DNA of 11,126 bases from Chloroflexota bacterium (GTDB lineage: Bacteria; Chloroflexota; Limnocylindria; Limnocylindrales; CSP1-4). Numbering within the stretch: position 1 is the first letter of the stretch; the number at the start of each line of letters is the position of its first letter. The notes under the pieces were generated by a model. That model was not told where the DNA came from. It searched no databases and worked only from the letters and a program-made list of their open reading frames with translations. Shown one piece after another: positions 1,283-11,126 of the stretch. A program made the translations under genes and the position numbers. The stretch covers positions 1 to 11,126 of the forward strand of contig JAJYGO010000135.1 of assembly GCA_021785115.1 (NCBI GenBank), given 5' to 3'.

Positions 1283-2944
1283 ATGGAACACATCCCCGCA
1301 CAGGTCGGGGCCATCGAAGATGACAACGTCGCGATTCACGTCGGATCGCGCGCCCGGTTCGAGATCCTCTTCGCAGTCCTGCTCGGGCTGTTCCTGAGCG
1401 CCCTCGACCAGACGATCGTCGGACCCGTGCTGCCCCGCATCGTCACCGACCTCAACGGTGCCAGCCTCTACACCTGGGTCGTGACCGCGTACCTGCTGAC
1501 GAGCACCGTCACGATCCCGATCTACGGCAAGCTCTCCGACCTCTACGGCCGGCGGCCGCTCCTGATGGCGGGCATCGTGCTGTTCCTCGTCGGGTCCGCG
1601 CTCTCCGGCCTCAGCCAGTCCATGGAGATGCTCATCGTGTTCCGGGCGATCCAGGGCCTCGGCGCGGGCGCGCTCTTCCCGATCTCGCTCGCGATCATCG
1701 GCGACCTGTTCTCACCGGCCGAACGGGGCAAGTACCAGGGCCTCTTCGGCGCGGTGTTCGGCGTCGCGTTCCTCGTCGGGCCGTTCCTCGGCGGGTTCCT
1801 CACCGACCACATCAGCTGGCACTGGGTCTTCTACGTGAACCTGCCGATCGGGGCCATCTCGCTGTACCTGATCTGGCGGCTGCTCCCGACCGTCCGGCGC
1901 GAGGGGGCGCGCATGAACCTCGACATCCCGGGCATCGTGACGCTCACGCTCGGAATCGTCCCGATCCTCATCGCGCTGACCATCGCGGAGAACGGCGACT
2001 GGACTGCTCCGGGCGTCATCGGCGGGTTCGCCGCCGGCATCGTGTTCCTCGTCGCGTTCGTGTTCGCCGAGACGCGCGCGGAGGATCCGGTCATCCCGCT
2101 CGGCCTGTTCCGCAACCGGACGTTCGCGGTGTCGTCGGTGGCGACGTTCCTGGCGACCTTCGGGTTCGCGACCGCGATCATCTTCCTGCCGCTCTGGTTC
2201 CAGGTCGTGCAGGGCGCAAGCTCCACGGCTTCCGGCTACGACCTGTTCCCGTTCCTGTTCGGCCTCATCGCGAGCTCGGTCATCTCCGGCCAGCTCGTGA
2301 GCCGGACGGGCCACTACAAGTGGCTGCTCGTCGGCGCCATGGTCCTGCTCGCCGTCGGGCTCGCCCTGTTCACGAACCTTCGCGCCGACACGCCCACGGC
2401 GACCCTGTGGCTGTGGATGGCCGTGGCGGGGATCGGCGTGGGCCCGATGATGGCGATCTTCACCTTGATCGTGCAGAACGCCGTCCCGATCCAGTTGCTC
2501 GGCACGGCCACGAGCGACCTCACGCTCATGCGCCAGATCGGCACCTCGTTCGGGCTGACGATCGCGTTCACGCTCTTCGAGAACAACCTGACCTGGAACC
2601 TGCTGCGGACGCAGATCGTGAAGGCGGGCGCTCCGGCGGCTTACGTGCCGGCAACGGCCCCCGCGTCGCTCAACATCGGCCAGGACCTCACGTCGGTCGG
2701 CGGGTCGGCCACGGCGCAGTTCCTGAGCCAGATCCCGCCGCAGCTCCAGTCCGCGTTCCTGCAGGGCTTCCACCAGGCGTTCTCGATCGCGCTGGCGAAC
2801 GCGATGTGGCTCGGCGCCGCGGCTGCGGTCGTCGCGGCTGCCGCGTCGCTCCTGCTGCACGAGCTGCCGCTGCGCGCGACGACGACCGCGCAGCAGCGCG
2901 CGCACGGGCGGTCGACCGTGGCAGGCGCACCCGCTCGCGACTGA
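1283..2944 (+). CDS. DHA2-family (EmrB/QacA-type) multidrug MFS exporter
   Basis: This 553-residue inner-membrane protein has the length and hydrophobic pattern of 14-TM proton/drug antiporters. TM1 holds the D1-type motif ALDQTIVGPVLP with the acidic residue at Asp42. Motif A is GKLSDLYGRRP (82-92), motif B is RAIQGLGAGALFP (121-133), and the antiporter motif C is GAVFGVAFLVGPFLGG (156-171), followed by WHWVFYVNLPIG (179-190), typical of DHA2 proteins. A last hydrophobic helix lies near residues 513-528, followed by a short basic tail. The start is well set by AGGAGAG (1270-1276), 6 nt before the ATG. It lies 75 bp behind the MarR gene and is probably its target. Such pumps expel drugs, dyes or self-made metabolites; the substrate here is unknown. 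Confidence 0.93.
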   Translation: MEHIPAQVGAIEDDNVAIHVGSRARFEILFAVLLGLFLSALDQTIVGPVLPRIVTDLNGASLYTWVVTAYLLTSTVTIPIYGKLSDLYGRRPLLMAGIVLFLVGSALSGLSQSMEMLIVFRAIQGLGAGALFPISLAIIGDLFSPAERGKYQGLFGAVFGVAFLVGPFLGGFLTDHISWHWVFYVNLPIGAISLYLIWRLLPTVRREGARMNLDIPGIVTLTLGIVPILIALTIAENGDWTAPGVIGGFAAGIVFLVAFVFAETRAEDPVIPLGLFRNRTFAVSSVATFLATFGFATAIIFLPLWFQVVQGASSTASGYDLFPFLFGLIASSVISGQLVSRTGHYKWLLVGAMVLLAVGLALFTNLRADTPTATLWLWMAVAGIGVGPMMAIFTLIVQNAVPIQLLGTATSDLTLMRQIGTSFGLTIAFTLFENNLTWNLLRTQIVKAGAPAAYVPATAPASLNIGQDLTSVGGSATAQFLSQIPPQLQSAFLQGFHQAFSIALANAMWLGAAAAVVAAAASLLLHELPLRATTTAQQRAHGRSTVAGAPARD

Positions 2945-3073
2945 CCTTCGCGCTTGGTGGCGGCGCGCGGCTGGCTCTCCGGCCCCGGCTCCGCTCATCG
3001 GCGCGGGCTCCGTCACCCGCACGCGCTGGTTCGTCGGCGCGTGGTCGGCCGGCGGCCCGGTCCGGTCGCGTCG

Positions 3074-3111
3074 GCGCCTCGGGCGCGCGAGCGTCTCGGT
3101 CGCGAAGGCGC
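3074..3111. terminator. Imperfect GC-rich stem-loop between convergent genes
   Basis: The outer arms GCGCCT (3074-3079) and AGGCGC (3106-3111) pair exactly, and an inner hairpin CGAG-cgt-CTCG lies at 3088-3098. It sits in the 219-bp gap between the convergent exporter and UspA genes, where a two-way terminator would be expected. No T-run follows on either strand, and GC-rich sequence gives such stems easily, so this is weak. Confidence 0.22.
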
Positions 3112-3163
3112 ACCGGTGGTCTCGGAGGCGCGCCGGTCCCGCAGTGGGCGCCTCGGGTGGTGC

Positions 3164-3613
3164 TCAGGATTCGGGCGCGCCGTGCCCCTCGTGCACGATC
3201 AGGACGGGGATCGGGCTGTGCCCGGCGACCTGCGCCGAGACCGAGCCGAGCAGCACGCTCTGGACGCGCCCGAGGCCGCGGGTGCCCATGACGAGCAGAT
3301 CGAACCGCCCGGACGCCACGGCGTCGAGGATCGCCGGCCCGGCATGCTGACCTGCCAGTGACTCGCGCTCCGGCTCGGGACCTCCCTCGGCCGTGACGAG
3401 TCTCGCCGCACCATCCAGGATCGCGTCGGCGGCGGCCATCGCCCGTTCCAGATCAGCCGAATACTCCGGCTCCCCCTCGAACCGGGGCGGCGCGGGGTAC
3501 ACCGTGAGAAGCGTGAGGTCCGAGCCGAGCTCCCGCGCGAGCCGCGCCGCGGTCGCCACGGCATCGTGGGCGTGCCGGCTCCCGTCGACGGCCACGAGGA
3601 TGTGCCTGAACAC
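3164..3613 (-). CDS. Universal stress protein (UspA family), ATP-binding type
   Basis: This is a complete single-domain Usp of 149 residues, the usual family length. It begins FRHILVAVDGS, with the nucleotide-contacting Asp10 after the first strand. Near the end it has the ATP-binding signature G110-x2-G113-x9-G123-S124 within MGTRGLGRVQSVLLGSVS, so it belongs to the ATP-binding rather than the UspA-like non-binding group. Such cytoplasmic proteins adjust survival under starvation, oxidative or respiratory stress, often as dimers. The start codon is GTG at 3613, with GGGAGG (3620-3625) 7 nt upstream. It converges on the exporter gene and is probably transcribed alone. Its specific stimulus is not evident. 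Confidence 0.93.
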   Translation of the reverse strand: MFRHILVAVDGSRHAHDAVATAARLARELGSDLTLLTVYPAPPRFEGEPEYSADLERAMAAADAILDGAARLVTAEGGPEPERESLAGQHAGPAILDAVASGRFDLLVMGTRGLGRVQSVLLGSVSAQVAGHSPIPVLIVHEGHGAPES

Positions 3614-3829
3614 GTGCTGCCTCCCTGTTCACGCGCCGCCAGTGGCGCAAGGGTAGCCGCGCGCCGCCGGCACCGGGAGGCGTCCGCGAGGGCAGGCGAG
3701 CGGCCCACGTGCGGACGCGGCCAGATGCCACTGCCCGCGTGCGCGGACTCGGGCCGAACAGGCCTTGATCCCCGATCATGCGTCGCGGAGGCTGGTTCCG
3801 GACAGCGTTCGAGGGAGCGAGGCGCCCGC

Positions 3830-4450
3830 GTGGGAGTGATCACCGAGGTCTGCGGGTCGGTCGGCCGGATCACCGCTCGACCTGAGAAGGTCGCGGACAT
3901 GCACGTCGTGAGGGAGATGCTGTTCACGTCGCAGCCGCTCGCCGCGACGCACATGGCCGCCTTCGGCTTGATGAACTGCTGCATGCCGCGCGACCCGCTC
4001 GAGGCGACGACCGCCGAGCTCGCCGAGCGGGTCGGAGCGACGTCGCCGCTCGTGCTTCGGATCGCGTCGACCTCGATGGACCCGAACGCGGACTTCGCGC
4101 GCTACGTGGCGGGCATCGACTGGGGGGCTGCGCTCGTCGCGGGGGCCGTCGCGGTGTGTCTCGCCGCGCTCGCGCTCAGGGTCGCGCCGCCGCTGCTCAC
4201 GCGGCTCGCGGCGCACGCCTGGACCGCGCCGCCGCTCCTTGCCGGCGTCGTCGGACGCGCGCGCCGGCTGGGGAGAGCGCCTCGAGACCCGGCCACGCGG
4301 TGGCTGTGCGGATCGTGCATGTCGTGGAACCCGCCGGGGTCGGAGGCGTGCGCACACGGGTGCGGGTCGCGCGCCGACTGCGAGCAGCCCGTCCCGGTGC
4401 GCGACGACGAGCTCGGGCGTCAGCGCGGTGGCCGCGGCCTGCGGCGGTAG
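3830..4450 (+). CDS. Single-pass membrane protein with C-terminal zinc ribbon
   Basis: This is an uncharacterised protein of 206 residues. From the GTG at 3830, a segment of about 95 residues without a recognised domain is followed by one hydrophobic helix (99-121, WGAALVAGAVAVCLAALALR) and a basic stretch. Then comes a compact zinc-ribbon-like motif with Cys160-x2-Cys163-x10-Cys174-x3-Cys178, in WLCGSCMSWNPPGSEACAHG. The C-x2-C plus W/NPP pattern recalls RanBP2-like or rubredoxin-like zinc knuckles used for protein or RNA contact. Third codon positions are strongly GC-rich throughout, which supports real coding. The start is uncertain: GTG 3830 has GAGG 7 nt upstream, while ATG 3899 (183 residues) has GAGAAGG 8 nt upstream. 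The stop lies 57 bp before tRNA-Arg. Function is unknown. Confidence 0.62.
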   Translation: MGVITEVCGSVGRITARPEKVADMHVVREMLFTSQPLAATHMAAFGLMNCCMPRDPLEATTAELAERVGATSPLVLRIASTSMDPNADFARYVAGIDWGAALVAGAVAVCLAALALRVAPPLLTRLAAHAWTAPPLLAGVVGRARRLGRAPRDPATRWLCGSCMSWNPPGSEACAHGCGSRADCEQPVPVRDDELGRQRGGRGLRR

Positions 4451-4451
4451 T

Positions 4452-4476
4452 GACGGCCAGCCACAGACGGCCAGCC
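4452..4476 (+). repeat. Short direct repeat upstream of tRNA-Arg
   Basis: GACGGCCAGCC occurs at 4452-4462 and again at 4466-4476, a 14-bp period with a 3-bp gap. It lies just ahead of a weak -10-like TACCAT (4494-4499) and the tRNA start at 4508. It may be a binding site for a regulator of tRNA transcription or a slippage duplication; nothing in the sequence decides. Confidence 0.5.
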
Positions 4477-4507
4477 GTCGCGATGCTCGCTGCTACCATC
4501 ACAGCGC

Positions 4508-4583
4508 GCGCCTGTAGCTCAGTGGATAGAGCGAGTGGCTTCGGACCACTAGGTCGCGGGTTCGAATCCTGCCGGGCGCGCCA
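4508..4583 (+). tRNA. tRNA-Arg (anticodon UCG), CCA encoded
   Basis: A full cloverleaf can be folded by hand. The acceptor strands are GCGCCTG (4508-4514) and CGGGCGC (4573-4579), with one U-G pair. The D-arm is GCTC/GAGC around AGTGGATA. The anticodon stem AGTGG/CCACT encloses loop CTTCGGA with anticodon TCG at 4541-4543. The variable loop is AGGTC, and the T-arm is GCGGG/CCTGC around TTCGAAT. The discriminator is G4580 and CCA (4581-4583) is encoded. It reads CGA codons, and possibly other CGN codons depending on modification. Its last 17 nt form the left copy of the island's attachment repeat, so the integrated element has left the tRNA intact. Confidence 0.97.
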
Positions 4584-5043
4584 AAACCACGTAGTCGGGG
4601 ATGGCCAGATCGAGCCCGAAGCGGTAGGCAGAGGGGCTCGGCTCCTCGTCGACGATTCGGTCTCCCAGGACGGTCAGTCGTCGGAATAGCGCCCGCACGA
4701 GTCCGCGACGAGTCTCGGGCTGGTGTGCGGCGTCCTGCCAAGCTGCGGCCAGGTTGCGCAGTTCCGCCACGGCGTCCTCCGGATCGATACTGTCTGCGGC
4801 GCCGGTCGTGGCGTCCAAAGCATCCAGCTCGGCGCTGAGGCGAGTGTGCTCGGCAAGGTACGCCTCGGTGGAGAGGCGGCGCGCTGCATGCGCCGCCGCC
4901 CGTTCGGCGAGCTCTCGCTCCAGTTCACGGCGTCGGAGGCATGTGGAGGACGGGGCTGCCGCCCCCGCCAGCGACCGAACCGCATCGAGCACCGGCTCCG
5001 TGAGCCGCAGCCCCGCCAGCTGGCCCTCCACCGTCCGGGCCAT
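4549..5043 (-). pseudogene. C-terminal fragment of a large serine recombinase (integrase)
   Basis: The 164 codons match the C-terminal part of recombinase-family (large serine) integrases. After a possible remnant of the zinc-ribbon exit helix (RTVEGQLAGLRLTEPVLDAV) comes a long charged coiled coil (RRRELERELAERAAAHAARR, then LAEHTRLSAELDAL). The typical closing segment includes RRGLVRALFRRLTVLGDRIV and IPDYVVLARPAG. The catalytic resolvase domain and most of the DNA-binding part are absent; intact relatives are usually around 450-550 residues. A stop codon lies in frame four codons before the ATG at 5043. In the next frame the preceding codons read RLDRAEW, so a one-base loss near 5040 could also have broken a longer gene. 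The last codons run antisense into the tRNA and stop in its anticodon arm. Catalytically dead. Confidence 0.72.
4567..4583 (+). repeat. attL-like repeat in tRNA-Arg 3' end
   Basis: These 17 nt cover the 3' strand of the T-stem, the 3' acceptor strand, the discriminator and CCA. They are identical to 10346-10362. Identity stops exactly after the CCA: the next base is A here and G at the right copy. That is expected when a tRNA 3' end is the crossover core. Confidence 0.75.
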
Positions 5044-5245
5044 TCGGCCCGGTCAAGGCGGGGCCGATGACCTTTGCCACCCCGTCCACCATTGTTCAAC
5101 GACAGGGCAATCCATACTGCACAGGTGCCGCTGTGCCGCACCGTTTCGCTGGCGATGCATATCCGAGCTGGCTTCGCACGGGACGGGAACACGTGCCCGC
5201 TAATTGCCGGATAGAACCCATCGCGGCGTGCGGAATGTCACCGCC

Positions 5246-5773
5246 ATGATCAGTGTTCTAGCTCGTTTCATCGAGCACCCGACAGCCCTGTTCCTCGCCG
5301 TAGTCTTTGCGGCGTCTGCGATTGACAAACGCCGACCGGAATGGGGCGCGGAACTCGCTGCCTACCCTTCCTTGCCTGCGCACTCGATCCACCATCTCAG
5401 ATGGGCCGTTCCGGCACTCGAGTTCATGACCGCTGTCGTCCTTGCCACGGGCCAGCCCGTCGGTCTGTTACAGGCAGGTGCCCTCCTGTTTAGCTACTCT
5501 CTGGTGCTCTCGCTTGCAATGCATCTCGGCCACTCTGGTTCGTGCGGCTGCGCATCGGGATCGGGGAGAGCGACACGAACAAAGGCATTGCGAGCCCTGG
5601 TATGGGGATTGGCGTCGACATGCCTGCCATTTCTGTCGGGAAGCGCAATGGAAGCGCCAGTGCTCCACAACTCCATCGTCCTCACAGTAGGCGAGATCAT
5701 CATCTTCGGTCTGATCTTCGGAGTCATTCGCTATGGTCGCGACCGCACAAGCGTCGCAGGTTCCCCATCGTAA
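5246..5773 (+). CDS. MauE/DoxX-like redox-associated membrane protein
   Basis: This 175-residue inner-membrane protein has about five hydrophobic segments (near 14-26, 52-68, 74-93, 115-133 and 143-162). Features shared with the MauE/DoxX group are the early AASAIDKRR, the PALEF motif in the second helix and a Cys-x-Cys (C100, C102) in GSCGCASGSG after the third helix. MauE is needed to mature the disulfide-rich methylamine dehydrogenase small subunit, and relatives are thought to pass thiol electrons to or from the membrane. A similar role in disulfide formation is inferred here, with the Cys-rich protein encoded next as the obvious candidate client. The ATG at 5246 was chosen because the first helix follows directly; TTG 5204 and GTG 5228 are in frame, and none has a good Shine-Dalgarno. 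The stop touches the ribosome site of the next gene. Confidence 0.75.
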   Translation: MISVLARFIEHPTALFLAVVFAASAIDKRRPEWGAELAAYPSLPAHSIHHLRWAVPALEFMTAVVLATGQPVGLLQAGALLFSYSLVLSLAMHLGHSGSCGCASGSGRATRTKALRALVWGLASTCLPFLSGSAMEAPVLHNSIVLTVGEIIIFGLIFGVIRYGRDRTSVAGSPS

Positions 5774-5789
5774 GGGAGGTATGTTCCAT

Positions 5790-6521
5790 ATGCACATGAC
5801 TCGACGCAGTCTCCTGCGGCGCGGATTGGCCACAATTGGCACACTGGTATTCGCCGACATCCTGAACGTCCGTTTCCCGCAGACAGCTCTCGGCTGTAGC
5901 CCGCAGTGGCCGCCAGTCTACCGTTCGCAATTCGACGGGAGCTTCTGCCAGTACGTCAACTGTGGTCCGACGTCCGCAGCGATGGTCAGATCCAGCGAGT
6001 CCTGCAATGCCTACAACCCTACGGGGGCGACCCTCCGAATCTGGTACGACCGAGCCGTGTACGGACACGACTGCGGCACGAACGGAGGGCCAATAGCGCC
6101 CTGCACCGGGCAGCCATGCCCAGACGCCGGAACGACTTACACCGGGCTCGGTCAGGCACTAGCCCTGCCTCCCGGCCGACAGACAATGTGGGATGGCGGT
6201 CCCGCATACAACTCCAAAGCGTACACCCTGCTGTGGGCCAACTTCGTCAATGATCTCAAGACGGGGGGACCGGGCTATTGCGCCGTAATGAACGGCAACT
6301 ACGACACGATGCCGGCCAAGTTCAAGTGTGACTCGCAGGCGCACGGTGGTCACTCAGTATTCGTCCTGTATGCCGACTCGGCCGGTAGCATGTTCACGGT
6401 CTACGACCCGGACAACTGCCAATCACAACCGAACGCATGGTCACAATCGGAGTTGTACCAGTTTATGAACGGCCTCTACGGTGACGGCTACGTGCGATGC
6501 GTCCTAGGCAAGCAGTCTTGA
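5790..6521 (+). CDS. Tat-exported, cysteine-rich C39-like putative peptidase
   Basis: This 243-residue protein begins with a twin-arginine signal (TRRSLLRRG, residues 4-12, then the hydrophobic GLATIGTLVF), pointing to folded export. The mature part has the papain-like C39-type elements in order: QYVNCGPTSAAMV with likely nucleophile Cys58, GGHSVFVLY with likely catalytic His188, and TVYDPDN with Asp206. It holds 11 cysteines in all, about ten beyond the nucleophile, so several disulfides are likely. There is no ABC-transporter part, so it is not a bacteriocin-processing ABC protein but a stand-alone extracytoplasmic hydrolase. The start at ATG 5790 is set by GGGAGG (5774-5779), 10 nt upstream. 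ATG 5781 is too close to that site, and 5796 is 16 nt away. The site begins just behind the MauE-like stop codon (5771-5773), so translation is probably coupled. Activity and substrate are unknown. Confidence 0.78.
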   Translation: MHMTRRSLLRRGLATIGTLVFADILNVRFPQTALGCSPQWPPVYRSQFDGSFCQYVNCGPTSAAMVRSSESCNAYNPTGATLRIWYDRAVYGHDCGTNGGPIAPCTGQPCPDAGTTYTGLGQALALPPGRQTMWDGGPAYNSKAYTLLWANFVNDLKTGGPGYCAVMNGNYDTMPAKFKCDSQAHGGHSVFVLYADSAGSMFTVYDPDNCQSQPNAWSQSELYQFMNGLYGDGYVRCVLGKQS

Positions 6522-6546
6522 GAAGCCGGCGAGGGACATAGCGGAC

Positions 6547-7557
6547 ATGACTTCGACAGCCGTACCCAGCGATCTTCTCGGAAGGACGTGGGTGACCATG
6601 CCGCCGCTTGAGGGGGTATTCCCCGCGTTCGGTGGGATTCTAGGATCAGACGCTCGCATCGTGCTGCCCTTCGGAGAGTTCCCCGTGGCGGCGGCAGGAG
6701 GGCGTATTGCGTCGCTGGTCTATGACCTGTCACCCTCAAGCGGTCTGTTCTTGGCGACGTCGCTCTACGTGCGTGACGTTGAGACAGGCGACGTGGTCTG
6801 GACCAACCGGTGGCCAGGTGGCTACGTCCATCCGCGAGGGGTGGCGCTCCTCTCGGATCGGCTGTATTTCACGCTCCAATCCGACGTGCGAGTCTGGAGT
6901 GCATCCGTTGTCCAGGTGACATTGCCAGATGGCATTCAGATGATGGTGCTCCCCGAGGCTGCCGGTCGCGGCATCCCCCAAGTCAGTCCATCTGGCCAAA
7001 TGCTGGCGACAGTCCTGGCGGGGCCCGCGCGTGCCACATCCATCGAGCTGTTCCAGTTGGCCTCCAATGCCAGCCGATCCCTTACCGTCACGGGGGAGCT
7101 CGTGACGCTCGGGATCTCCTGTTTGGTCACCAAGTCCGACGTTGGACTGATGGGATATGACTTGAGCACCGGCGCATTGAGATGGTCCATTCCCGACATT
7201 CTCTATCAACGTGGTTATGTCACGAGCGACGGCGCACGGCTCGTGGCTCAGACCGGCATCGATCCGAATCTCATCGATCAAAACTTGGCGGCGTTCTCTC
7301 TGGATGCACTTCGCTCGCGGATCGCCGTGATCGACTTGGCGACAGGCGAGAAGCACAATCTGTCAGAAGCCCCATTCGGACACGCTATGAATTACCTGTG
7401 GACTCACATTTCGGGGGATACGTACGGCAGTGTCATCGCCGCGGGCGTCTTTCCAGCCGACACCTTCCAAATCAATGGAGGCGTGTGTCCTTTGAGCCTT
7501 CTCGACCTCTCGTCAGGGGCATTGTGGGAGGATGCGATCGCTCTTACGGCATCCTAG
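6547..7557 (+). CDS. Soluble beta-propeller protein, paralogue of the anti-sigma sensor domain
   Basis: This 336-residue protein has repeated blade-like strands of WD40/PQQ type (VRDVETGDVVWTNRW, MGYDLSTGALRWSIPDIL, IAVIDLATGEKHNLS, SLLDLSSGALWEDA). It has no signal peptide, Tat motif or membrane helix, so it should stay in the cytoplasm unless exported by an unknown route. It aligns along its whole length with the outer domain of the membrane protein at 8834. For example, PDILYQRGYVTSDGARLVAQ matches PDLLFDRGYLTTDGARLVMQ, and the starts SDLLGRTWVTMPPLE and PDGLTNKAWAEMGPLE also correspond. It therefore equals that sensor without its anti-sigma segment, membrane helix and linker. GAGGGA (6531-6536) lies 10 nt before the ATG. 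It follows the C39-like gene by 25 bp, probably in one operon. A ligand-binding or decoy role is inferred; enzymatic motifs are not evident. Confidence 0.72.
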   Translation: MTSTAVPSDLLGRTWVTMPPLEGVFPAFGGILGSDARIVLPFGEFPVAAAGGRIASLVYDLSPSSGLFLATSLYVRDVETGDVVWTNRWPGGYVHPRGVALLSDRLYFTLQSDVRVWSASVVQVTLPDGIQMMVLPEAAGRGIPQVSPSGQMLATVLAGPARATSIELFQLASNASRSLTVTGELVTLGISCLVTKSDVGLMGYDLSTGALRWSIPDILYQRGYVTSDGARLVAQTGIDPNLIDQNLAAFSLDALRSRIAVIDLATGEKHNLSEAPFGHAMNYLWTHISGDTYGSVIAAGVFPADTFQINGGVCPLSLLDLSSGALWEDAIALTAS

Positions 7558-8150
7558 GGCCTGTGGAGAGGACGGCACCGACTAGTGGAGCCGCGTGGAT
7601 CTGCTGCGTCGTCCGGATCTTCCTGACGGGCAGGGCGGCGGACGATCCCCCGCGGGGCTGCTGACCGACGGCGGCACGCTCAAGGTTGGCCTCAAAGGTC
7701 GTCGGCGGGTCGCGCCCATGAAGCGATGGGGTCGTCCAGCGCTGGAGGCCGACGAGCTGTAGCAGGAGGAACGCGAGTCTCGCCGCCGGTGGCTCATAGA
7801 CGAGTTAGAGCTTGAGGCGTTCTGGCGGGAACGCTCGACCCCGCCGCATGTCCGGGGCTCAGCTCTTCCGCCACCGCCTCGAGCCGGATTCCGCCCGCTG
7901 CTTGGCCGTCGATGAACACCGGCCCGAGCGCCCATCGCGCGGGCAACTGCCCAATCTGACCGGCCGCGAGGGATCTGGCGAGAGGGCCGGCAACACTACC
8001 TTCCGCTACCTGAGCCGACTCCGCCACCTCGGCGTCGGCGTACCCTCTCCCGGCGGATTGTCCGGCCGCTAATCGCCGACGACCATATCGGGGCCGGTGA
8101 GCCAAAGGCGGCTCGTTCCTCCGGGAGTCCGTCCTCGAGGCCGCTCGCGA

Positions 8151-8164
8151 CTGCCGGGCGCGCC
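8151..8164 (+). repeat. Third, shorter copy of the tRNA-end repeat
   Basis: CTGCCGGGCGCGCC is identical to tRNA positions 4569-4582 and is in the same orientation. Flanking bases differ: A instead of C before it, and C instead of the A of CCA after it. It lies between the two cargo modules and could be an inner attachment site of a composite island. The core includes GGCGCGCC, which recurs in such GC-rich DNA (CGGGCGCGCC also occurs near 3174), so chance is possible. Confidence 0.35.
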
Positions 8165-8237
8165 CAAGCCGTTCGAGATGACGTGATAGGCGCGTCTGCG
8201 ATGCCCGAGAGAGCACGGACTGGCGTTGACGAGAATT

Positions 8238-8265
8238 GAACCTTCCGCCTTGCTCGACAGTCATA
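8238..8265 (+). promoter_or_regulatory. Possible ECF-type promoter of the sigma gene
   Basis: GAAC (8238-8241) is followed after 18 bp by GTCATA (8260-8265), about 40 nt before the GTG start. ECF factors often read a -35 with an AAC core and a -10 with GTC, and commonly transcribe their own gene. A similar arrangement, GAAC (5214-5217) with GTCA (5237-5240) and a 19-bp gap, lies upstream of the MauE-like gene. The motifs are short and spacing differs by one, so this is tentative. Confidence 0.25.
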
Positions 8266-8303
8266 TCAGGCACGAGAGACACGACCACCAGGAGATGAGG
8301 TCC

Positions 8304-8834
8304 GTGGCGCCCCACGATCGCGCAGCTGCACCGGGGGAGCCCGAAGCCGCCTTCGTCCATCTTGTTGAGGCGCACCTGGATGCCGCCTATCGGCTCGCCA
8401 CATTCATTCTGGCTGGCGACCGCTCTGAGGCGGAGGACGCGGTGCATGACGCCGCTCTCCGCGCGTGGGAGCACTTCGGGGACGTCCGCGACCGCGAGCG
8501 GTTCGAGGCGTGGTTCAGCCGGATTGTCGTGAATGCGTGCCGCGATCGGATCGCGAAGCGACGGCTGCGGCCCGTGGCTCTCGGGGATCCTGACATGGGC
8601 GCCGCTCCCGACCACGCCGACGCGCTCGTTCGCTCGGACGCAATCGAGCGGGCCATGCTGGCCCTCTCTCCCGAACACCGCGTCGTCGTCGCCCTGCGCT
8701 ACATCGAGGACCGCTCGATCCAGGAGATCGCAGTCTGCACGGGCCAGCGACCAGGAACGGTCAAGAGCCGGCTGCACTATGCCATGCGCGAGCTGCGAGC
8801 CGCCCTCGAGGCCGAGGCGCGGGAGGTAGTCTAA
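8304..8834 (+). CDS. ECF-family RNA polymerase sigma factor
   Basis: This 176-residue protein has the two ECF domains. The sigma-2 region is at about 17-85 (FVHLVEAHLDAAYRLATFIL, EAEDAVHDAALRAW as the core-binding and -10 reading part, then FEAWFSRIVVNACRDRIAKR). The sigma-4 region is at about 115-165 (LSPEHRVVVALRYIEDRSIQEIA, then GTVKSRLHYAMREL as the -35 helix-turn-helix). No extra C-terminal domain is present. GTG 8304 is preferred because AGGAG (8290-8294) lies 9 nt upstream; the in-frame ATG at 8295 directly abuts that site, and TTG 8226 has none. Its TAA shares one base with the ATG of the next gene, so it is translationally coupled to its presumed anti-sigma partner. It should direct a small regulon, possibly including the island's other operon (inference). 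Confidence 0.92.
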   Translation: MAPHDRAAAPGEPEAAFVHLVEAHLDAAYRLATFILAGDRSEAEDAVHDAALRAWEHFGDVRDRERFEAWFSRIVVNACRDRIAKRRLRPVALGDPDMGAAPDHADALVRSDAIERAMLALSPEHRVVVALRYIEDRSIQEIAVCTGQRPGTVKSRLHYAMRELRAALEAEAREVV

Positions 8835-10159
8835 TGAACGACGAGCTCTTGGAACAGCAAGTGCGCGAGATCGCGAGACGTATCGCGAGAGGGGACGCTC
8901 CTGGTTCATTGCACACGCGCGTGGCGGCCATTCCCTACGAGCATCCGCGGCGACAGCTCGCATCCCGCCATCTCCCGCCGCTCCGCCTCGGCGTGGCCGT
9001 GGCGGCGTCAGTGATCCTAGCGGTCGTGGCGCTGCTGCTCGTCTCGACGTTGCCTCCCAACGACGTGCTCGCGCCAGGCGCGACCAGCCAGGCGACCCCG
9101 AGCGCTGCGCTGACCCCCTCCCCGCCTGCTTCCGCCGCTCCGGCCCCGACCCTCGCGACATCCGTGCCGATCCTGCTGCCCGATGGTCTCACCAACAAGG
9201 CATGGGCCGAAATGGGACCGCTCGAGGCGACCGCGCCCTACGCCGTGGGCCTCCTCGACAACAGCGCGCACCTTACTCTGCCCTCCAACGAGCGCGTGCT
9301 TGCCGTGGGCGATGGAAGGGTGGCGTCGGAAACGACCGCGTTCGACACCATCGTCGTCCGCGACGTCGCTAGCGGACAACGTGTGGCGCAATATGCGCAG
9401 CCGGGCGCCCATATCTTGCTCGGCGCTCTCGGGACCTCGGACCTCTATTTCGTCATGCAGCCAGTCGCGTCCTCGCCTGCCAGTGGCGTCTATACCCTCG
9501 ACCTCGCCTCCGGCCAGGTCACGACGCTTCTGGCGCCTGACGCAGGACGGAACTCGCTTGCGCTGAGTCCGAGCGGCAAGACCCTCGTGTCCGAGATCGG
9601 GTTCCCTGCGTCGTCGCCGGTGACGGAACTGGACATCATCAACCTCCCGTCCGGGACGCATACCCGAATCCAGGTGCAGGGAACCGCGCAAGTCGTAAGC
9701 GACGCGCTCGTGGTCACCTACGACGCGCGGAACCTCTACGCGTACTTGCTCGCCTCCGGCCGGACCGCGTGGACGATCCCGGACTTACTGTTCGATCGCG
9801 GCTACCTCACGACCGACGGAGCTCGGCTTGTGATGCAGACCGGAATGGATCCAAATACCGTGGGCGCCGGTCGCGGGTTGCCGGCAGGCGCCCAGACACA
9901 GCACATTTCCATTGCCTCGATGTCTAGCGGATCGCTGCGCACCTTGGTAACGGTGGCGAGCGGGAGGCCGGCATACTACCTTTGGACGCAGGTCTCGGGC
10001 GACACCGCGGCCGTGCTCCTGACGCCTGCGGGTTTCCCACAGCAGGAGTTCCAGATTGGCGGTGGGGCTCTGTCGGCGTCCGTCCTCGATCTCGCCACTG
10101 GCAAGGTCACGCCGCACGCCTTGACAATCACCCAAGCCTCGCCCACCGGATCTCCTTGA
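8834..10159 (+). CDS. Putative anti-sigma factor with outer beta-propeller sensor
   Basis: This 441-residue, single-pass membrane protein has a short cytoplasmic head (1-50, charged helix DELLEQQVREIARRIARG). One membrane helix (51-71, LGVAVAASVILAVVALLLV) and a Pro/Ala/Ser/Thr-rich linker (75-110) follow. An outer beta-propeller of about 330 residues completes it, with blade strands such as VRDVASGQRVAQY, YTLDLASGQVTTLL and SVLDLATGKVTPH. The head lacks the His-x3-Cys-x2-Cys zinc motif of classic ECF anti-sigma factors; the assignment rests on position, overlap with the sigma gene and topology. GGGAGG (8821-8826) lies 7 nt before the ATG. The propeller is a clear paralogue of the soluble protein at 6547. 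By family logic, an outer signal would change the head's grip on the sigma factor. The ligand is unknown. Confidence 0.82.
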   Translation: MNDELLEQQVREIARRIARGDAPGSLHTRVAAIPYEHPRRQLASRHLPPLRLGVAVAASVILAVVALLLVSTLPPNDVLAPGATSQATPSAALTPSPPASAAPAPTLATSVPILLPDGLTNKAWAEMGPLEATAPYAVGLLDNSAHLTLPSNERVLAVGDGRVASETTAFDTIVVRDVASGQRVAQYAQPGAHILLGALGTSDLYFVMQPVASSPASGVYTLDLASGQVTTLLAPDAGRNSLALSPSGKTLVSEIGFPASSPVTELDIINLPSGTHTRIQVQGTAQVVSDALVVTYDARNLYAYLLASGRTAWTIPDLLFDRGYLTTDGARLVMQTGMDPNTVGAGRGLPAGAQTQHISIASMSSGSLRTLVTVASGRPAYYLWTQVSGDTAAVLLTPAGFPQQEFQIGGGALSASVLDLATGKVTPHALTITQASPTGSP

Positions 10160-10264
10160 GCCGCATGCGCTTCCGATGAGACGCGCGCCGACTCGTGCCG
10201 GTCGGACCGTGCTTGGCGCGGCCGGACGGCTTCGGGTCGTGGCTCGGTCCCGCGTCGCGCAGGT

Positions 10265-10345
10265 CTAGGCGCTCTCGCCGATCCGGGCTGCCCGCTCTGT
10301 GCGGCCGATGATATTGACGTGATAGGTGGACACCTCGTCGCCGGC
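10265..10345 (-). other. Possible original C-terminal codons of the integrase
   Basis: Read on the minus strand in the same codon phase that the recombinase fragment uses across the repeat (LARPAG), the sequence continues AGDEVSTYHVNIIGRTERAA and ends at a TAG at 10265. If the element were excised as a circle, the repeat would join the recombinase to this tail rather than to the tRNA-antisense tail FEPAT. This is an inference: the phase is seen directly, but an open frame of about 27 codons is not rare in GC-rich DNA. Confidence 0.4.
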
Positions 10346-10362
10346 TCCTGCCGGGCGCGCCA
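10346..10362 (+). repeat. attR-like repeat, copy of the tRNA-Arg 3' end
   Basis: TCCTGCCGGGCGCGCCA matches 4567-4583 perfectly and in the same orientation. Upstream the match ends at once (the T-loop is not copied), so this is not a second tRNA gene. It marks the right boundary of the island, and sequence after it probably followed the tRNA before insertion. Confidence 0.75.
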
Positions 10363-10619
10363 GTACCCCCTCCCACGACCGGTTGACGACGACGATCCCG
10401 CCGTGGCCGCCCGGCAGCGCCACCGCTGCTCCTGCGCCGTGCGCGGATGGCGGAGGTCGTTCGGCGTGCCCGGCGGCACTCGGGTTGTCACCGAGGGCGG
10501 CGAGCGGCCGGACCAGGCACGTACAATCGCCACGCGCTCCCGCCGCCAAGCCGCCGAAGGCTCCCCTCGCGGTGGCTGCCTGACCTCGACCGGGCAACCG
10601 GATGAAGGGTGATGAGGAC

Positions 10620-11126
10620 ATGATCACGGGCTACTTCCGGCCGCGCACGCTCGACGAGGCGCTCGCTCTGGCCGCCCGGACAGACGGAGTGGTGGTCGGG
10701 GGCGGCACCGCGGTCAACGCGCGCCCCGATCGGCGGCCCGTCGTGGCCGTCGACCTGCAGGCGCTCGGCCTCGACGGGATCCATGAGGAGCCCGGACGGC
10801 TGCGCGTGGGCGCGACCGCGCGCCTCCAGGACATCGTCGACTCCGACCTCGTCCCCGACGTGCTCCGCAGCCTGGCACGCCTCGAGGCTCCGAGCACGAT
10901 CCGCAACGCCGCGACCGTGGGGGGCACGATCGGTGGCGGCGATCCCGACAGCCCGCTGCTCACCGGCCTGCTCGCGTACGGCGCCATCGTCGGCGTCGCG
11001 CGGGTCGGGTCGAAGGCTCGGCACCCCCTCGACGCGGTCCTCGACGATCGCGGCCTCATCGAGGGCGGCATCATCACCGACGTGACGATCCCGCTCGTGG
11101 AGCGCGCCGGCGCACATGGGACCGGT
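10620..11126 (+). CDS. CoxM/XdhB-type FAD-binding subunit of a molybdenum hydroxylase, 3' end beyond window
   Basis: The 169 visible residues are the N-terminal, FAD-binding part of the middle subunit of xanthine-dehydrogenase/CO-dehydrogenase-type enzymes (full length usually about 270-300). The protein opens YFRPRTLDEALALAA, typical of the family. The first FAD loop is VVVGGGTAVNARPD, where many relatives have AGGTDL, so the Asp-Leu is replaced by Ala-Val. The second loop is RNAATVGGTIGGGDPDSPLL, matching the conserved T-GG pattern that holds the pyrophosphate. The subunit moves electrons from the molybdenum and iron-sulfur subunits to FAD. Those partners would be expected downstream, outside the window. 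GAAGGG (10604-10609) lies 10 nt before the ATG. The substrate cannot be told, and no coxM/xdhB symbol is assigned. Confidence 0.88.
   Translation, partial: MITGYFRPRTLDEALALAARTDGVVVGGGTAVNARPDRRPVVAVDLQALGLDGIHEEPGRLRVGATARLQDIVDSDLVPDVLRSLARLEAPSTIRNAATVGGTIGGGDPDSPLLTGLLAYGAIVGVARVGSKARHPLDAVLDDRGLIEGGIITDVTIPLVERAGAHGTG

Follow-up and report, generated by a model that had tools for sequence, protein, structure and literature searches.

In a stretch of 11,126 nucleotides from a Chloroflexota bacterium (contig JAJYGO010000135.1 of assembly GCA_021785115.1), which is referred to here as the window, positions 4567-10362 very probably represent a decayed, non-autonomous island from a lineage of Chloroflexi integrative elements whose large serine integrases act at the 3' ends of tRNA-Arg genes. 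The target gene is a tRNA-Arg with the anticodon TCG (4508..4583, plus strand), which was predicted to be complete by ARAGORN and scored 68.9 bits with Rfam RF00005. The final 17 bases of this gene, TCCTGCCGGGCGCGCCA, constitute the attL copy of a direct repeat (4567..4583, plus strand), and the single further exact copy in the window, the putative attR, is found in the same orientation at 10346..10362. The exact 17-bp copy of the tRNA-Arg 3' end, ending at the CCA, that had been reported in the original prediction was thus borne out by pattern matching. A first-order Markov model gives an expectation of 2.4e-5 exact copies of the 17-mer for the window and of about 0.005 for 2.5 Mb. The repeat is also rare in G001 (Chloroflexi bacterium WH2.bin114), a possibly incomplete 2.5-Mb bin of the metagenome-assembled genome (MAG) type, of which contig C447 (L005/L161; JAKAAV010000023.1) matches the window at 99.9% over 9,433 bases. 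The 16-mer core CCTGCCGGGCGCGCCA has exactly two copies in G001, both at the repeat sites of the window, and the reversed-pattern control gave none; the search for scattered copies that had been proposed with the prediction therefore speaks for a unique pair.

The tRNA is adjoined by the C-terminal fragment of a large serine integrase (4549..5043, minus strand), which was recognized by PHROGs and tblastn searches. It aligns with positions 465-569 of the 651-position profile of a PHROGs integrase family (E=3.5e-5) and is closest to the integrase C-terminus beside a tRNA-Arg(TCG) in the related genome G107 (54-56% identity), which confirms that the recombinase fragment noticed earlier is real. 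It does more than adjoin the tRNA, however: the reading frame overlaps the tRNA by 35 bases, a point missed in the original prediction, and ends within it as VVLARPAGFEPAT with the stop codon TAG at 4549-4551, inside the tRNA and outside the island. The tblastn alignment of the family integrases runs on to 5169, beyond an in-frame stop at 5053-5055. Searched alone, the fragment gave nothing above the cut-offs in Pfam, NCBIfam, and PDB sequence searches. When residues 1-200 of 121 integrases were used as queries for the catalytic half, no match at E<=0.01 was obtained anywhere in the window. Hence, the window retains the C-terminal DNA-binding region of a large serine recombinase, as indicated by the PHROGs match, but not its catalytic domain, and the integrase is a relic rather than an enzyme.

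A second integrase tail is encoded at the right end of the island. This right-end arm (10265..10357, minus strand) is in frame, has its first codons inside the repeat and its stop at codon 31, and encodes the alternative tail RPAGAGDEVSTYHVNIIGRTERAARIGESA. A profile built from 23 arms of relatives scores the right end of the window with 4.1 bits, a score that 5 of the 960,187 open frames of the null equal or exceed; the null was drawn from 676 kb of family loci and comprised open 26-mers, frames containing stops or following RP[AT]G having been excluded. As a tblastn list had already pointed to the likeness of the right end (E=0.015), the profile test was not blind but served to confirm a match at a predetermined position. 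Of the 45 right arms not used for training, almost all scored below -18, whereas L240 reached 13.5, L250 0.5, and L247 -0.4; the test thus has specificity but lacks sensitivity. By its sequence, the window tail is a distant member of the tail family. Because this in-frame tail matches the family profile there, 10346-10362 is most likely the true attR, with the attachment site located inside the integrase gene. The far boundary of the island carries a direct repeat of the tRNA 3' end, as is expected for an integration event at this site, and the repeat, its rarity, and the two integrase tails all support the proposed integration at the tRNA 3' end in company of a serine-recombinase relic.

The exchange of integrase tails at the repeat is a recurrent feature in relatives of the window. 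Across the repeat, one reading frame encodes RP[AT]GFEPAT or close variants in the tRNA copies, with the tRNA being read antisense, and in the same frame many copies outside tRNAs encode an alternative tail such as RPTGVGRALATYAIPIEGRDEWLAAARRLA, followed by a stop. The fetched loci contain 123 distinct repeat contexts, 52 in tRNAs and 71 outside, with L110, counted among the latter, being a tRNA cut by a contig end. An in-frame tail of 28-33 residues follows 43 of the 71 non-tRNA repeats, and the remaining ones are shorter, longer, or unlike. Integrase coding sequence abuts 25 of the 52 tRNA repeats and 23 of the 71 others, as judged by a motif filter that misses some cases. G014 contains a tandem array in which the reading frame of the second integrase continues into the first element's right end. 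The same two kinds of C-termini were found for homologs of the full-length relative P0001. Applied to 120 listed of its 920 homologs (from 7,995 scored candidates), the motif filter revealed 79 proteins with a tRNA-antisense tail, 19 with a right-end tail, and four with other tails after the motif; 18 had no motif, although some of these, e.g. P0065, still end in PAGFEPATF. The RPxGFEPAT-type C-termini of 79 of the 120 proteins are thereby accounted for as a tRNA read backwards.

In relatives, the right-end tail appears to be kept as a protein and not only as DNA, because the ratio of nonsynonymous to synonymous differences (pN/pS) is low in the integrase frame (0.50; bootstrap over codons 0.33-0.71) in comparison to the other same-strand frames (1.06 and 1.40). 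On the opposite strand, the values are 1.41, 0.61, and 1.42, with the frame at 0.61 having the same third positions as the integrase frame. This calculation comprises 23 of 69 right arms, namely those with at least 60% nucleotide identity to one reference arm chosen by the authors (L193); the 45 other arms and the window were left out, and the ungapped comparison inflates pN. The stop falls exactly at codon 31 in 15 of the 23 arms. An earlier count of codon positions had been based on 15 arms picked by an amino-acid motif and was biased for this reason, so it was redone with the nucleotide criterion.

These features would be explained by the following reaction sequence. The integrase gene is located at the tRNA side of the element, pointing at the tRNA, and reaches no stop codon before the element ends. 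In the circular form, its 3' end would cross the attachment core into the far end of the element, which encodes a tail of about 30 residues. A crossover at the core, i.e. the tRNA 3' end, would then swap this tail for one that is read antisense from the tRNA, leaving the tRNA complete and stranding the old tail at the other end of the element. Both halves of such a split are present in the window, VVLARPAGFEPAT in the tRNA and RPAGAGDEVSTYHVNIIGRTERAARIGESA at the right end. As the integrase of the window has lost its catalytic half, any excision would need a related integrase acting in trans. It is distinctly doubtful, though suggested by the conservation of the tail (pN/pS 0.50) and by the recurrence of the arrangement at several tRNAs and one tmRNA, that the tail exchange acts as a switch by which the integrase C-terminus reports the state of the element, namely integrated next to a tRNA as opposed to free or located downstream of a similar element. 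If true, such a switch could bias integration versus excision without a separate directionality factor.

A match to the integrase fragment is present in 61 of the 107 genomes of the family to which G001 belongs. P0001 has a Resolvase domain (PF00239, E=1.8e-11), and S29, which is presumably the nucleophilic serine, is invariant across 59 aligned integrase sequences. For the relative P0063, a structure predicted with AlphaFold is of low confidence (mean pLDDT 61) and the tail region yields no usable structure; its best Foldseek matches are solved serine integrases (9dxh, E=7.7e-14; PhiC31 9tep, E=4.5e-11), and as the TM-scores are low (about 0.2), these matches support the domain type only. In a search of the class, the integrase stop lies in a tRNA or within 60 bases of it at 20 of the 29 best-matching loci (L266-L294). 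Of the nine exceptions, two (L272 and L276) carry right-end tails, and the terminal GFEPAT of a third, L283, falls at a tRNA that is truncated by the contig end. The tRNAs involved are Arg (CCG, TCG, GCG, CCT, TCT), Pro(CGG), and Val(CAC), together with one tmRNA in another class, and all listed overlaps of integrase and tRNA are tail to tail. In the class of L037 (titled Dehalococcoidia), P0001 matches at E-values of 1e-10 or below were found in 6 of 343 genomes.

The original prediction had regarded the pairing of a serine integrase with a tRNA as less usual. For well-studied bacteria this agrees with the literature as far as available, in which tRNA sites are associated with tyrosine integrases (PMC5704250, PMC10654092); in the present lineage it does not hold, as the 20 of 29 loci illustrate. 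A further account, as far as accessible, places attB typically in tRNA, tmRNA, or intergenic sequence with both integrase families pooled (PMC12884075), and the word 'tRNA' is absent from the main text of an article on serine recombinases (PMC10083194). The best-ranked matches listed from the open-access literature included no paper on a serine integrase family of Chloroflexi or Limnocylindrales that targets tRNAs.

Several further relatives of the integrase were also observed. A long open-frame serine integrase relative with 35% identity to P0001 is encoded on contig C342 of G001 (L305; match 1048-2622, stop at about 2769) and ends inside a tRNA-Pro(CGG). A distant relative with 26% identity (L304, G250:C139), from one of the six matching genomes of the class of L037, has its stop inside a tmRNA gene, an arrangement resembling that of DsiB (see below). 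Two distant relatives with 43-44% identity are located on viral contigs (L044 and L045), with the tRNA-Tyr of L044 lying away from the match.

The pattern CCTGYCGGGCGCGCCA has 128 copies across 71 of the 107 family genomes (reversed control, 5), and at least 12 contigs, that of the window included, have a tRNA copy and a same-orientation downstream copy 1.4-20.2 kb apart, the tRNA copy of G034 carrying one mismatch. In G034, a tRNA-His gene (L154, 1397-1472) is followed about 1.2 kb downstream by a 49-base repeat of its 3' half. A GAACnnnnGTTC-like palindrome, which is taken here to be SOS-box-like, directly follows the repeat in 10 of the 123 contexts (L163, two in L198, L200, L204, L205, L206, L242, L244, L245), none of which has a recognized integrase end; these contexts perhaps represent a second class of element left end. 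In several genomes (L169, L176, L191, L196), a TGTCTTGAGTCGCGAC-like sequence directly adjoins either the repeat or the end of the tRNA; it perhaps belongs to another element using the same insertion point.

Several observations weigh against the interpretation of 4567-10362 as an integrated island. The right tail of the window is divergent: it scores 4.1 bits, as against 47.6-87.8 bits for the training arms, and shares 47% of its nucleotides with the reference arm. Moreover, no clean empty site, in which the tRNA CCA would be joined directly to 10363, was found in the near relatives G002, G003, G005, G070, and G071, and the genomes that have a visible title are MAGs, many of them fragmentary. 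Both flanks are rearranged in comparison to the relatives. The right flank encodes the FAD-binding subunit of a chromosomal molybdenum hydroxylase operon (10602..11126, plus strand; PF00941, E=1.8e-21), and this hydroxylase region is conserved in G070, G071, G002, and G006. The same tRNA (99-100%) occurs without an adjoining integrase match in G003, G005, G070, and G071, and G002 has a short integrase-end relic beside it. However, in none of these five genomes does the tRNA lead on into the right flank of the window, the two flanks are not neighbors in G003, G005, G070, and G071, and the hydroxylase operon and the tRNA are on separate contigs in G002, G070, and G071. Within 1283-4507 of the window, the MFS-USP block and the DNA upstream of the tRNA are rearranged in comparison to relatives; the block is inverted relative to the tRNA, facing its 3' end in G002 (L148) and G003 (L152) and its 5' end in the window. 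The empty site anticipated in the original prediction was therefore not recovered for want of a collinear relative, and this is not a contrary result. Relatives carrying 4584-10345 as conserved chromosomal DNA, which would have spoken against an island, were not seen either, and one gene of this segment, the C39-like gene described below, occurs in G001 only among the 107 genomes. Although the lacking empty site and the divergent right tail would also agree with a second repeat that arose by chance and an integrase stub left over from an earlier insertion of unrelated origin, the right end of which was lost, this explanation is highly improbable in view of the Markov expectation of 2.4e-5 for the exact repeat, of the repeat stopping exactly at the CCA, and of an in-frame tail at the expected place, matched by 5 of 960,187 null frames.

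Finally, the island may be composite, with cargo acquired in more than one step, because its GC content changes near 7560: it is 0.62 up to 7560, 0.70 up to 8165, and 0.67 beyond, with 0.72 and 0.74 in the flanks. As a rival explanation, two or more elements would have been arranged in tandem at the tRNA, and an internal deletion would have removed all but one element's integrase stub, another's right end, and cargo from both. Tandem arrays with internal repeats are indeed present in the relatives G014, G018, and G034, the island contains two paralogous beta-propeller genes, and between these lies a degenerate copy of the repeat (8149-8165, plus strand). This copy was rejected as an internal attachment site, as it has three mismatches and 0.37 copies with up to three mismatches are expected by chance, and as an internal boundary, as the right-end tail is absent (-74.6 bits) and no recognizable integrase end adjoins it. 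The GC change, furthermore, is located at about 7560 and not at 8149. Such a tandem origin is possible but somewhat unlikely.

The cargo of the island starts with a MauE-like membrane protein (5204..5773, plus strand; PF07291, E=4.8e-15), followed by a Cys-rich, probably exported protein that is weakly similar to C39 peptidases (5733..6521, plus strand; Peptidase_C39_2, E=0.081, below the cut-off). A beta-propeller-like protein (6547..7557, plus strand; PQQ_2, E=3.6e-4, below the cut-off) is a paralog of the protein encoded at 8834..10159 on the same strand (32% identity, E=8e-47). The latter follows a gene for an extracytoplasmic function (ECF) sigma factor (8226..8834, plus strand; Sigma70_r2, E=2.3e-13; Sigma70_r4_2, E=1.8e-11), which has a 72% identical paralog on contig C285 of G001. 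Although the 8834..10159 protein has no Pfam or NCBIfam family above the cut-off, its N-terminus is probably anti-sigma-like, because the gene follows the sigma gene and the N-terminal paralog adjoins the sigma gene on C285 as well, and the rest is beta-propeller-like. Judging from this gene order, the protein may be the anti-sigma partner of the ECF sigma factor. It was matched in 17 of the 107 genomes, the best match outside G001 having 50% identity in G003. A common cargo of the family was not supported, given that the C39-like gene is restricted to G001 among the 107 genomes and relatives of the sigma and propeller genes are scattered; the whole-genome searches covered the C39-like, sigma, and second propeller genes. 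A blastn comparison of the island with 31 related loci gave no match beyond the tRNA and integrase sequence.

The island might also still be mobile as a cis-mobilizable element, with an intact relative of the integrase, encoded in the same cell or elsewhere in the population, acting on its attL and attR. As far as can be defined by sequence, it has the expected properties, i.e. both attachment ends are kept and a working integrase of its own is lacking. Integrase-less units beside integrase-bearing ones are described for Dehalococcoides in the accessible part of PMC3146451, and G001 holds a candidate helper in the long open-frame integrase relative on C342 (35% identity). However, this enzyme ends in tRNA-Pro(CGG) and not in tRNA-Arg, so its sites should differ, and it is the sole P0001 match in G001 at E<=1e-30 among the matches listed. 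In the assembled sequences, no excised form was seen. Mobility in trans is considered unlikely.

As a decayed island, the segment can be compared with several known systems in which recombination affects the integrase gene. The archaeal suicidal tyrosine integrases also have the attachment site within the integrase gene; according to the portion of PMC8371274 consulted, these unrelated enzymes are split by integration, in contrast to the exchange of only the last residues here. Streptococcal integrative and conjugative elements at rumA, which have a single serine integrase, are closer: one repeat copy is located inside the integrase gene, and integration exchanges the 3' parts of the target gene and the integrase, thereby altering the integrase C-terminus (PMC4701971, in part). 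At rumA, however, integration also changes the target, a protein gene, whereas the tRNA here stays complete.

The integrase family also shares its recombinase type with the SCCmec cassettes. Their recombinases CcrA and CcrB are serine recombinases, which P0001 matches weakly and far below the NCBIfam cut-offs (E=8.3e-6 and 2.3e-5), but they use a different target. For the serine-integrase clade of this Chloroflexi lineage, which often ends in tRNA 3' ends, element ends can be read directly from the DNA.

The closest parallel is found in the ssrA islands of Dehalococcoides, a member of the same phylum. In the available parts of the respective reports, these islands are described as occurring in tandem arrays (PMC3146451, PMC2764846) and as being flanked by 20-bp direct repeats of the RNA gene 3' end, with 15 of 31 having no integration module (PMC3146451). 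The gene for the serine recombinase DsiB is located next to attL on the reverse strand and invariably extends over attL with its 3' end, the stop codon being placed outside the island, in ssrA or an adjacent island (PMC3146451). The elements described here share the serine recombinase 3' end over attL, the RNA-gene 3' repeats, and the tandem arrays. They differ in that the target in the window is tRNA-Arg and not ssrA (tmRNA), and in that the window shows no six-gene integration module, general scans having recognized only the integrase fragment and other cargo. In comparison to DsiB, as far as its description is available, an alternative tail has been identified here, together with constraint at the protein level in relatives, which makes the question of the real C-terminus of DsiB testable. 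Although the island in the window is a relic, it belongs to a kind of element that, with its tRNA target, varies an architecture already described for this phylum.

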